DNA of 64,000 nucleotides from Thiomonas sp. X19. Lineage in GTDB: Bacteria; Pseudomonadota; Gammaproteobacteria; Burkholderiales; Burkholderiaceae_C. The translations under genes and the position numbers were made by a program. The notes beneath the pieces are model-generated. The model made no database searches and was not told the DNA's origin. It saw nothing but the letters and a program-made list of their open reading frames with translations. Below, in pieces: positions 36,305 through 59,492 of this stretch. The stretch lies in contig NZ_LT605203.1 of the NCBI RefSeq assembly GCF_900089495.1, forward strand, positions 4,121,427 through 4,185,426, written 5' to 3'. How positions within the stretch are numbered: the stretch's first letter is position 1; every line of letters begins with the position of its first letter.

Positions 36305-37201
36305 TCAGCCCAGCCGTTTCTGGATGAGTTGGCCCATTTCCGACGGGTTGCGGGTGACGGTGAAGCCGCAGGCGTGCATCACGTCCAGCTTGGCTTCGGC
36401 GGTGTCGGCGCCGCCGGCGATGAGCGCGCCGGCATGGCCCATGCGCTTGCCCGCAGGCGCGGTGACGCCGGCGATGAAACCGACGATGGGCTTGGTCATG
36501 TGCTGCTTGGCCCAGAGCGCGGCCTCGGCCTCGTCGGGGCCGCCGATCTCGCCGATCATGATGACGCCATCGGTGTCGGGGTCGTCGTTGAACAGCTTGA
36601 GCACGTCGATGTGCTTCAGACCGTTGATGGGGTCGCCGCCGATGCCCACCGCGCTGCTCTGCCCCAGCCCCAGCTCGGTGACCTGCCCCACCGCCTCGTA
36701 GGTCAGCGTGCCCGAGCGCGACACCACGCCGATGCGCCCCTTGCGGTGGATGTGCCCGGGCATGATGCCGATCTTGATTGCATCCGGCGTGATCAGCCCC
36801 GGGCAGTTCGGCCCCAGCAGCAGGGTGCGCTTGCCGCCGCCGGCCTCCTTGGCGCGCATCCTGGCGCGTACTTCCATCATGTCGCGCACCGGAATGCCCT
36901 CGGTGATGCAGATGACCAGATCGAGGTCGGCCTCGACGGCTTCCCAGATCGCCGCGGCCGCGCCGGGGGGCGGCACGTAGATGACGGAGACGGTGGCTCC
37001 GGTGGCCGCGCGGGCCTCGGCCACGCTGGCGTGGATGGGAATGCCCTCGAAGTCCTCCCCGGCCTTCTTCGGGTTGACCCCGGCGACGAAGGCGGCGCGG
37101 CCGTGGGCGTAGTCGCGGCACATGCGGGTGTGGAACTGGCCGGTCTTGCCGGTGATGCCTTGGGTGATGACTTTGGTGTTCTTGTCGATGAGGATGGACA
37201 T
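36305..37201 (-). CDS. sucD: Succinyl-CoA synthetase alpha subunit
   Basis: TCA cycle enzyme subunit of 298 residues. [16 protein letters not shown] is the CoA/nucleotide-binding start, and [10 protein letters not shown] contains the active-site phosphohistidine. The [10 protein letters not shown] and [16 protein letters not shown] segments are conserved. It follows sucC, but an unusually long 145-base spacer filled with inverted repeats lies between them. Confidence 0.96.
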
Positions 37202-37215
37202 ACAAGCCTCCGAGC

Positions 37216-37304
37216 GGGGCCAAGTTTCGGTCGCTGCGCTCCCGCGATACTTGGCCCCGGATTGAATGGGCGTCCAAAGCTTGGGGCGGCCCTGCGCTTT
37301 GGAC
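37216..37304 (+). repeat. Palindromic elements in the sucC-sucD spacer
   Basis: GGGGCCAAGT (37216-37225) and ACTTGGCCCC (37249-37258) form a perfect 10-bp stem. Next to it GCGTCCAAAGC and GCGCTTTGGACG (37270-37305) flank TTGGGGCGGCCCT, the core of the dispersed repeat family also found at 18.4, 39.9 and 55.8 kb. Both lie between the two synthetase genes and could set their relative mRNA stability. Confidence 0.65.
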
Positions 37305-57366: not shown

Positions 57367-57885
57367 TCATGCCAGGTCACGGCGACGGCGCAGCACGTCC
57401 ACCTGGGCCGACATCACCAGCGCGTCTTCCTTGCACGGCTGGCCGTAGACGTCGAGCGCGGGGTAATAGTTGCGGCGCTTGGCCACGGCATGGAAACCGT
57501 AGCGCTCATACAGGCGAATGGCGCGGTGATTGCTCGGGCGCACCTCCAGCCATAGCAAGAGCGCACCCTGCATGGCCGCGGCCACCAACACCGCGTCGAG
57601 CAGGTGCCGGCCCAGCCCCAAGCCGTGCAGCGCGGGATCCACGGTGAGATTGAGCAGGTGCATTTCCTCCACCCCCGGCATGGCGACGAAATAGCCCAGC
57701 ACCACGCCATCCGGCCGCGCCAGAACCTGCACCACATAGCGCGGGTTGAGCGAGTCGGCAAAGTTGCCGCGGCTCCAGGGGAACTCGTAAGCGCGCCGCT
57801 CGATGGACATGACCGCGTGCAAGTCCGTTTCGGTCATGGCGCGCAGTTCAGCCTCAGGCTGCGGCGCGTTGAACTGGGCACTCAT
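57367..57885 (-). CDS. rimI: Ribosomal-protein-S18-alanine N-acetyltransferase RimI
   Basis: GNAT acetyltransferase of 172 residues. The acetyl-CoA motif is DPALHGLGLGRHLLDAVL; conserved LEVRPSNHRAIRLYERYGFHAVAKRRNYYP follows. It acetylates N-termini such as that of S18. Its ATG overlaps the TGA of a 25-codon mini-ORF (ATGA at 57885-57882), the last of a tandem series of ten. Translation may therefore be driven by re-initiation rather than by its own site. Confidence 0.93.
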   Translation of the reverse strand: MSAQFNAPQPEAELRAMTETDLHAVMSIERRAYEFPWSRGNFADSLNPRYVVQVLARPDGVVLGYFVAMPGVEEMHLLNLTVDPALHGLGLGRHLLDAVLVAAAMQGALLLWLEVRPSNHRAIRLYERYGFHAVAKRRNYYPALDVYGQPCKEDALVMSAQVDVLRRRRDLA

Positions 57886-58627
57886 GGTTGAGTCCCCTCG
57901 ACGCTGCGCGTCGTCCCTCCGGGAGGGCATTCACCCTTGAGACGGCTCTGCGGGCTCATGGATGGGCTCCCTCGACGCTGCGCGTCGTCCCTCCGGGAGG
58001 GCATTCGCCCTTGAGACGGCTCTGCGGGCTCATGGATGGGCTCCCTCGACGCTGCGCGTCGTCCCTCCGGGAGGGCATTCGCCCTTGAGACGGCTCTGCG
58101 GGCTCATGGATGGGCTCCCTCGACGCTGCGCGTCGTCCCTCCGGGAGGGCATTCGCCCTTGAGACGGCTCTGCGGGCTCATGGATGGGCTCCCTCGACGC
58201 TGCGCGTCGTCCCTCCGGGAGGGCATTCGCCCTTGAGACGGCTCTGCGGGCTCATGGATGGGCTCCCTCGACGCTGCGCGTCGTCCCTCCGGGAGGGCAT
58301 TCGCCCTTGAGACGGCTCTGCGGGCTCATGGATGGGCTCCCTCGACGCTGCGCGTCGTCCCTCCGGGAGGGCATTCGCCCTTGAGACGGCTCTGCGGGCT
58401 CATGGATGGGCTCCCTCGACGCTGCGCGTCGTCCCTCCGGGAGGGCATTCGCCCTTGAGACGGCTCTGCGGGCTCATGGATGGGCTCCCTCGACGCTGCG
58501 CGTCGTCCCTCCGGGAGGGCATTCGCCCTTGAGACGGCTCTGCGGGCTCATGGATGGGCTCCCTCGACGCTGCGCGTCGTCCCTCCGGGAGGGCATTCGC
58601 CCTTGAGACGGCTCTGCGGGCTCATGG
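57881..58627 (-). repeat. Ten-copy 74-bp tandem array between tsaB and rimI
   Basis: Ten units of 74 bases; nine are essentially identical and the one next to rimI has a few changes. Each unit, read on the minus strand, contains GAGGGA about eight bases before an ATG, the self-complementary pair CCCTCC/GGAGGG and a CGACG/CGTCG hairpin. No spacers or variable parts exist, so it is not CRISPR. Each unit encodes one overlapping mini-ORF. High identity indicates recent expansion or homogenisation. Confidence 0.95.
57882..57959 (-). CDS. rimI-proximal 25-codon mini-ORF; nine more follow upstream at 74-base steps
   Basis: Starts at ATG 57959 and stops at TGA 57884-57882, four bases into rimI (ATGA). 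The same 78-base frame repeats with starts at 58033, 58107, 58181, 58255, 58329, 58403, 58477, 58551 and 58625. Because the unit is 74 and the frame 78 bases, each stop overlaps the next start by ATGA. The encoded peptide (Met-Ser-Pro-Gln-Ser-Arg-Leu-Lys, then CPPGGTTRSVEG) has no known family. Whether it is translated is inferred, not shown. Confidence 0.6.
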   Translation of the reverse strand: MSPQSRLKGECPPGGTTRSVEGTQP

Positions 58628-58727
58628 CAATCTCTCGTTTTGACGGCCGCCCAAGCAGCGCGGGCGAACGCCACAACCCGGGCAGACCCGCAAATATTGC
58701 CGCGCATGATCGTTTGCCGGCAATGCT

Positions 58728-59492
58728 TCATGCCGCCTCGACCCGGCGGGCGCGCTCGCGTTCTTCCGTGGTCAGCGCCACCTTGTTGCGCACATAAATG
58801 GGCAGGGCCTGCGCGGCGGCGACGCTCTCCCCACGCACATGCGCGGCGCGCGCCAGCCGGGCGACCGCGGCGGCTGTGGGCGCCACGGTCTGGGCCGCAC
58901 CCAGCTGTTTCTGCCAGGCCGCCGGCAGAGCCGCAGCCAGCGCCGCGCCATGTTCGGCCCAGGCATGGCCCAGCAGTTGCAAGCCCGCTGGCGGCACTTC
59001 GCCCAAGGCTTGCACCCAGGCCAGCGCAGCGGCTTGCGGCGATGCGACTTGCGCCGGGGCGGCCAGGCGCAAGCCGCCGTCTGCACCCTGCTGCGCCAGC
59101 GCCCAATACAGTTCGCCCATGCGGGCATCGTTCGCCACCAAAAGGGTGGGCGCCTGCGCGGCCGAGCCTTCGGCCGATGCCGCCACGGCGAGCAGGGTGT
59201 GAACGGGTACGACCGGAATGTCCAGCCCGAACGCCAGGCCTTGCGCGGCGGCGCAGGCGGCGCGCAAGCCGGTGAAGGCCCCGGGGCCGGCGCCAAAACC
59301 AATCAGCCCGATGTCGCGCAACCGGATGCCGGCCTCGGCCAGCAATTCCTGCACCAGCGGCAAGAGACGCTGCGAGGCGCGCGCGCCGCCGGGCTCGGTG
59401 CTGGCGAGCACTGCGCCGTCGCCCAGTTGAAGCGCGACCGACAGCCACTCGGTGCTGGAGTCGAAAGCGAGCACATGCAGGGCTGAAGACAT
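58728..59492 (-). CDS. tsaB: tRNA t6A synthesis protein TsaB
   Basis: 254 residues from ATG 59492. ASKH-fold protein: VLAFDSSTEWLSVAL, IGFGAGPGAFTGLRAACAAAQGLAFGLDIPVV and PTLLVANDARMGELYWA match the YeaZ family. It joins TsaD and TsaE to make t6A in tRNA using the product of TsaC/Sua5 (43.6 kb). tsaB-rimI is a common neighbour pair; here 842 bases with the repeat array separate them. Confidence 0.94.
   Translation of the reverse strand: MSSALHVLAFDSSTEWLSVALQLGDGAVLASTEPGGARASQRLLPLVQELLAEAGIRLRDIGLIGFGAGPGAFTGLRAACAAAQGLAFGLDIPVVPVHTLLAVAASAEGSAAQAPTLLVANDARMGELYWALAQQGADGGLRLAAPAQVASPQAAALAWVQALGEVPPAGLQLLGHAWAEHGAALAAALPAAWQKQLGAAQTVAPTAAAVARLARAAHVRGESVAAAQALPIYVRNKVALTTEERERARRVEAA

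Follow-up and report, generated by a model that had tools for sequence, protein, structure and literature searches.

A probable MIRU-like element outside mycobacteria: a ten-unit array between tsaB and rimI in Thiomonas sp. X19

The ten 74-bp units lying between tsaB and rimI in the window (the whole 64-kb stretch of Thiomonas DNA that was analysed) are very probably a tandemly expanded MIRU-like element, one that settled in an NTGA stop/start overlap and whose mini-ORF would relay the ribosome to rimI. "NTGA" in this context is a 4-nt overlap in which the stop codon of one gene shares bases with the start codon of the next. We infer that a short, hairpin-rich repeat, apparently mobile, settles in such overlaps, and that its insertion duplicates the overlap while bringing in a Shine–Dalgarno (SD) sequence and a mini-ORF as long as the unit plus 4 nt. 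Since the mini-ORF has this length, the ribosome could be passed on: having ended the upstream gene it would start again on the mini-ORF, stop at the following overlap and then begin the downstream gene. Here, the element would have entered the tsaB–rimI junction (relatives have a bare NTGA there) and then been amplified to ten units, with coupling to rimI presumably kept through the entire relay. The features that bear on this reading can be seen in the sequences: the position of the elements, the empty sites in relatives, a frame rule, the SD and the paired hairpins. The main "function" of the element would then be harmless persistence in operons, with any tuning of rimI a possible side effect.

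Tandem Repeats Finder places the array at 57881–58627 (period 74, 10.1 copies, 99% matches, score 1459), and our script resolves it into ten minus-strand units (57882–58625) whose ATG codons start, from unit 1 to unit 10, at 58625, 58551, 58477, 58403, 58329, 58255, 58181, 58107, 58033 and 57959. Each unit holds a frame of 25 codons beginning with ATG and closed by TGA, 78 bases in all, i.e., unit + 4. Within each ATGA, the TGA of one unit shares bases with the ATG of the unit that follows, and the TGA of unit 10 does so with the rimI ATG (57885). A first-pass annotation, made from the sequence alone, had described both the ten units with their 25-codon frames and the ATGA linkage running onto rimI; Tandem Repeats Finder and the script recover the former, and the script bears out the latter. 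Its GAGGGA start sites apply to units 2–10, where GAGGGA stands 8 nt 5′ of the ATG, while the SD position has GAGAGA before unit 1 (within unrelated sequence) and GAGGGG before rimI.

Units 1–9 are identical, and unit 10 on the rimI side (57882–57959, minus strand), with five base differences, is the sole diverged copy. Because only this rimI-proximal unit has diverged, new units were probably added by tandem duplication on the upstream side. The assembly could have miscounted the nine identical copies. Unit 9 (57956–58033, minus strand) serves as an example of the architecture, as it comprises one element plus the ATGA shared with the next unit: it has hairpins CCCTC-CCG-GAGGG and CGACGC-GCA-GCGTCG, the SD GAGGGA and the ORF MSPQSRLKGECPPGGTTRSVEGAHP. 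Rfam, at gathering thresholds, gave no match anywhere in the 64-kb window.

The array overlaps the start of rimI (57367–57885, minus strand), which encodes ribosomal protein S18-alanine N-acetyltransferase (TIGR01575, E 7e-31). On its other side lies tsaB (58728–59492, minus strand; TIGR03725, E 2e-49), and both matches exceed the curated cut-offs; the tsaB start codon was picked by eye, and the matched protein was translated from 59489. The tsaB stop is also in an ATGA (58731–58728), 106 bp ahead of unit 1, so tsaB has no direct junction to the array. The spacer between them (58626–58727, minus strand) is open in the relay frame. Traced by script, a path starting at the tsaB ATGA would first take an ORF of 85 codons that spans the spacer, crosses unit 1 out of frame with that unit's own ORF and joins the ORF of unit 2; eight 25-codon ORFs (units 3–10) and finally rimI follow, a chain that is gapless on paper. 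A search of 31 genomes found no whole copy of the spacer and three short partial matches. A consensus scan of 57700–59100, spacer included, found no sigma-70-like promoter, and the one terminator-like site in that range is on the plus strand within tsaB.

Far from being a lone curiosity, the window array belongs to a family of elements dispersed among genomes. The first-pass annotation had suggested looking for the unit elsewhere in the genome, and BLAST found it at two further loci with 84–90% identity, as well as in two of 59 other genomes, both Thiomonas. We then used two covariance models: R1, which describes whole elements including their ATGA ends, and R2, a core model without those ends that was itself built from R1 finds. 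Counting the genome of the window, R1 matches occur in 22 of 28 Thiomonas genomes and R2 matches in 25. The related Thiomonas elements are 72–81 bp long and occur singly or in tandem; we examined 48 arrays of 2–10 units, and the ten copies at tsaB–rimI make the largest of them. Some copies are interrupted or composite: one element (L011/L019, G000:C3:749810) is split by a repeat-like stretch with the motif GGGGCGACCCTGCGTTTCCTTGA, a similar stretch occurs in L018, and L086 and L109 are composites in which a longer hairpin segment (e.g., GGGAAGGCTGGGGCCGGAGGCCCCAGG in L086) splits or trails the element.

Across the order, R2 matched 7 of 250 genomes under stricter filters, the genome of the window included, and in a second genus (g76, family f44) it matched 15 of 23. 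One genome of this second genus (G123, and partly G164) has eight distinct loci with elements in inverse orientation, all of which start with ATGA; at their 3′ ends, five have ATGA, two have another ATG and one has neither. The inverse elements of L179–L204 (G123, G164), with ATGA at the 5′ end, have spacings of 80–82 bp. The window array had no match in the plasmid collection, a second element type had none in the phage and plasmid collections, and neither of two patterns matched the viral contigs. A looser SD pattern did pick out 17 viral-contig stretches, which we judged by eye to be unrelated gene starts.

In many cases the elements sit precisely at stop/start overlaps. We assessed position in 96 deduplicated clusters with flanks, drawn from the best-scoring matches, leaving out those with a flank under 150 bp, with runs of N in a flank or with an upstream flank that matched a previously counted one at 85% identity or more. 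The 5′ end of the element lies on the TGA closing the upstream frame in 67 of the 96 clusters, the 3′ end lies at the start of the downstream frame in 72, and both ends fit in 56, compared with 0.10% of 17,280 random positions at the same loci; since elements and arrays are mutually related and come from best-scoring matches, these counts are neither independent nor random samples. The core model, which contains no ATGA ends, gave a list of 38 clusters, of which 29 were kept (seven were too short, one had N and one was a duplicate), and both ends fit in 16 of these 29. Two of the 29 (L319 and L320) are loci that R1 also gave. Element ends are mostly ATGA, with GTGA and TTGA too and some CTGA. 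The remaining 40 of the 96 clusters include CTGA or altered ends, rearranged flanks and one element inside a gene (L062). At the locus that reads as hisD–hisC (L061), the stop lies before the ATGA rather than within it, and the script nonetheless counted the upstream frame. The in-gene case, L062 (1093–1242; G000:C3:1141092-1141242), consists of two tandem units in frame inside what appears by eye to be a BMP-family ABC substrate-binding protein, an arrangement that resembles Rickettsia palindromic elements (RPEs).

Relatives provide sites where the element is missing. Of the 38 rimI loci obtained, we examined those in which RimI was 60% identical or more, 16 in all, including ones at 94% and 91%. 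The array is absent from tsaB–rimI in all 16, and in 14 of them the tsaB stop overlaps the in-frame rimI start as NTGA, with a gap of about 25 bp in the other two. The first-pass annotation had proposed comparing copy number and ATGA phase at this junction among related genomes; the comparison gave the overlap in 14 of 16 and an array in none. We presume the bare NTGA of these 14 relatives to be the empty, pre-insertion site. R2 found no full element at the 16 junctions. In T. delicata (L140, 2947–2996), however, the 3′ end of tsaB runs into a weak R2 match (22 bits, E 0.044), so this species perhaps has no clean empty site, and the stretch may be what is left of an earlier insertion there. 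L145 carries an array about 2.4 kb from its tsaB–rimI junction.

Two other junctions were compared in the same way, with elements recognised by eye. At nirB–nirD, none of 11 relatives has the element; five have NTGA at the site, and six have TGA, a short gap (about ten bases) and then ATG. At ribH–nusB, none of 25 relatives has it, and the nearest ones have a short gap and no overlap, so at this locus an overlap is not proved as the pre-insertion state.

Lengths and spacings of 1 mod 3 are scarce. Among single elements with both ends, 28 of 31 have a length of 2 mod 3, and the sole one with 1 mod 3 (L078) becomes 77 if another ATGA is chosen. In the 48 arrays, counted with no removal of similar flanks, 30 of the distinct spacings are 0 mod 3, 24 are 2 mod 3 and a single one (L066) is 1 mod 3. 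The naive binomial probability of this scarcity is 6e-9, a figure that serves only as a guide, since the arrays are related. By eye, the L066 spacing, which is in a diverged first unit, and a 1 mod 3 spacing at L067 from a separate count are both anchor offsets. NTGA is present at 39 of 41 junctions with 2 mod 3 spacing vs 14 of 45 with 0 mod 3. We read the 2 mod 3 class as the one that would use re-initiation and the 0 mod 3 class as probable read-through, in which the frame runs on into the next unit or gene.

A simulated ribosome path is consistent with this. From 93 clusters, we removed 25 with no qualifying 5′ stop/start and eight with no qualifying gene start, and in 59 of the remaining 60 the path gets to the downstream gene (54 by re-initiation, five in frame). 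When a random single-base indel was introduced, the path stayed intact in 651 of 1200 trials, compared with the 59 of 60 for unaltered clusters. The element between modB and modC (names given by eye) provides another example: in three species its copies are just 66–69% identical where the flanks are 84–95% identical, and they stay 74 or 77 bp long (2 mod 3) with an open frame. Because the relay layout recurs in dozens of insertions and the frame is conserved, translation through the element appears to be constrained, which implies selection for it. Thus the relay proposed in the first-pass annotation stands as an architecture, and its supposed uniqueness does not, given that MIRUs are known.

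An SD core is supplied by 45 of 46 elements, compared with 10% of random positions, and the median SD duplex energy is −12.3 kcal/mol in elements vs −3.8 kcal/mol at random positions. Across 32 elements, most of which belong to the 77-bp class, 92% of cells in hairpins 1 and 2 are paired, and 41 cells are changed on both sides vs 15 in shuffles. Counted by pair, two-sided change occurs in five of 14 vs 3.7 in shuffles, 59 of 500 of which reach five, so there is no clear excess.

Short repeats with some of these properties are known, and the closest are the mycobacterial interspersed repetitive units (MIRUs). MIRUs are apparently mobile and insert at start codons; the ORF inside them is coupled to the gene at −4 nt, an arrangement that likely softens the effect of insertion (PMC12548453). 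They occur in many mycobacteria (PMC12548453); PMC4213456 names M. leprae and the Mtb complex and places tandem units of 77 and 53 bp between senX3 and regX3. The Thiomonas elements are alike in that they lie at the downstream start in 72 of 96 clusters with an ORF overlapping by 4 nt, are dispersed (25 of 28 genomes) with element-free relatives at three loci, and have tandem copies at some loci. The MIRU target is reportedly DTGA (Supply et al. 1997); the ATGA, GTGA and TTGA ends of the Thiomonas elements agree with this, and those with CTGA deviate. The claim that no system of this form had been described is therefore contradicted.

To compare the two directly, we sought a MIRU motif in 397 Mycobacteriales genomes and found it in five. 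Of 11 loci tested, five run from NTGA to ATGA over 50 or 53 bp, i.e., 2 mod 3, and so share the length rule, although one of them (L357) has an upstream frame of just 47 codons; the other six comprise two arrays whose ends the script misplaced and four that failed the end search. In plasmids and phages, the motif gave weak or partial matches alone. The differences are that the Thiomonas element is in another phylum (Betaproteobacteria: Thiomonas and a second genus of its order), that its consensus is unlike that of MIRUs save that one subfamily shares GAGCGCAGCGA, adjacent to the SD, and that it has a GC-rich hairpin body, with ten near-identical copies in the window array. Against mycobacterial loci preselected for the shared motif, the best R1 match had E 0.013, and R2 gave E 0.32–2.1. 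Judged by architecture and frame rule, both of which match MIRUs, we classify the window element as MIRU-like and outside mycobacteria. No title or abstract opening in our literature search, which did not reach most subscription papers, dealt with such an element from Thiomonas or Burkholderiales.

Other systems resemble it less. RPEs are palindromic and likewise leave the reading frame open (PMC10969869), but they are about 150 bp long and lie in frame inside genes; L062 is the exception among the Thiomonas elements, and such insertion is not the rule, as 56 of 96 clusters are intergenic and fit at both ends. REP/BIME, ERIC, BOX and Correia elements are short, hairpin-forming repeats, some in operons, but frame-locked insertion at stop/start overlaps is absent from their descriptions in the accessible part of PMC3049150. 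Termination–reinitiation at ATGA overlaps, the coupling step that we assume for each junction, is described for pairs of genes (PMC6728339), whereas here mini-ORFs are chained within a repeat.

We considered whether the element could be an ordinary REP/BIME-type palindromic repeat moved by a RAYT-like Y1 transposase, its coding property being a by-product of high G+C content and few stops. A short GC-rich repeat with paired hairpins, tandem arrays and a tetranucleotide-like target would fit, and the element-rich genomes G000, G011 and G014 have one Y1_Tnp (PF01797) match each. However, only 10 of 28 Thiomonas genomes have such a match, and it is missing from seven of the ten element-richest, i.e., those with at least 18 R2 matches (G005, G010, G017, G018, G019, G026 and G027), while the genome with the most Y1_Tnp matches (G021, with nine) has one element. 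We rejected this transposase as the mobiliser since its distribution fits the element poorly, and the Y1/RAYT link is thus unsupported. A by-product would also leave the scarcity of 1 mod 3 and the precise NTGA position unexplained, and we regard this explanation as very unlikely. Even less credible is that the mini-ORF encodes a 25-residue peptide with a function, multiplied to raise its dosage: the frame is open in every array unit, but the peptides diverge widely across insertions and, at one locus, across species, although length class and ends persist; where the spacing is 0 mod 3, the frame runs into the next unit or gene.

The element could instead be a dedicated regulator of rimI, selected here because copy number or switching between hairpin and SD sets dosage. 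The size of the array, largest of the 48, is in keeping with this, as is the ability of CCCTC to pair with GGAGGG or with the SD, on which the first-pass annotation had based a switch. Hairpin 2 is indeed well paired, but the switch is weakly supported, with two-sided change in one of the five pairs of hairpin 2 and at a single pair of the alternative between hairpin 2 and the SD. Folding is similarly divided: relative to shuffles, a stretch of 322 nt is more stably folded (z −3.4), but a single unit is not (z −0.3). Moreover, elements precede many unrelated genes (livG, nirD, nusB, hisC and modC among others, named by eye), and none of the 16 relatives has an array at tsaB–rimI. We therefore consider a dedicated rimI regulator unlikely, and favour the MIRU-like element with its putative relay.

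A MIRU-like identity would mean that Betaproteobacteria, cultured type strains among them, also carry a kind of element known from mycobacteria. With values of 2 or 0 mod 3 and hardly ever 1, the frame rule offers natural evidence of ribosomes crossing inserts, and the chain of ten units amounts to a natural experiment on how many serial re-initiations one mRNA tolerates. Such elements may also account for short ORFs and N-terminal extensions in the annotations of these genomes. More speculatively, and with low confidence, MIRU-like relays might be a general mobile class that includes Betaproteobacteria and Actinomycetota at the least among its hosts and is moved by a dedicated mechanism recognising stop/start overlaps; the GAGCGCAGCGA–SD segment would then reflect common descent or cross-phylum exchange, and copy number would tune the downstream gene.

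Elsewhere in the window, at about 37200–37260, a palindrome (GGGGCCAAG...CTTGGCCCC) lies just 5′ of the start of a minus-strand gene and possibly belongs to another repeat family.
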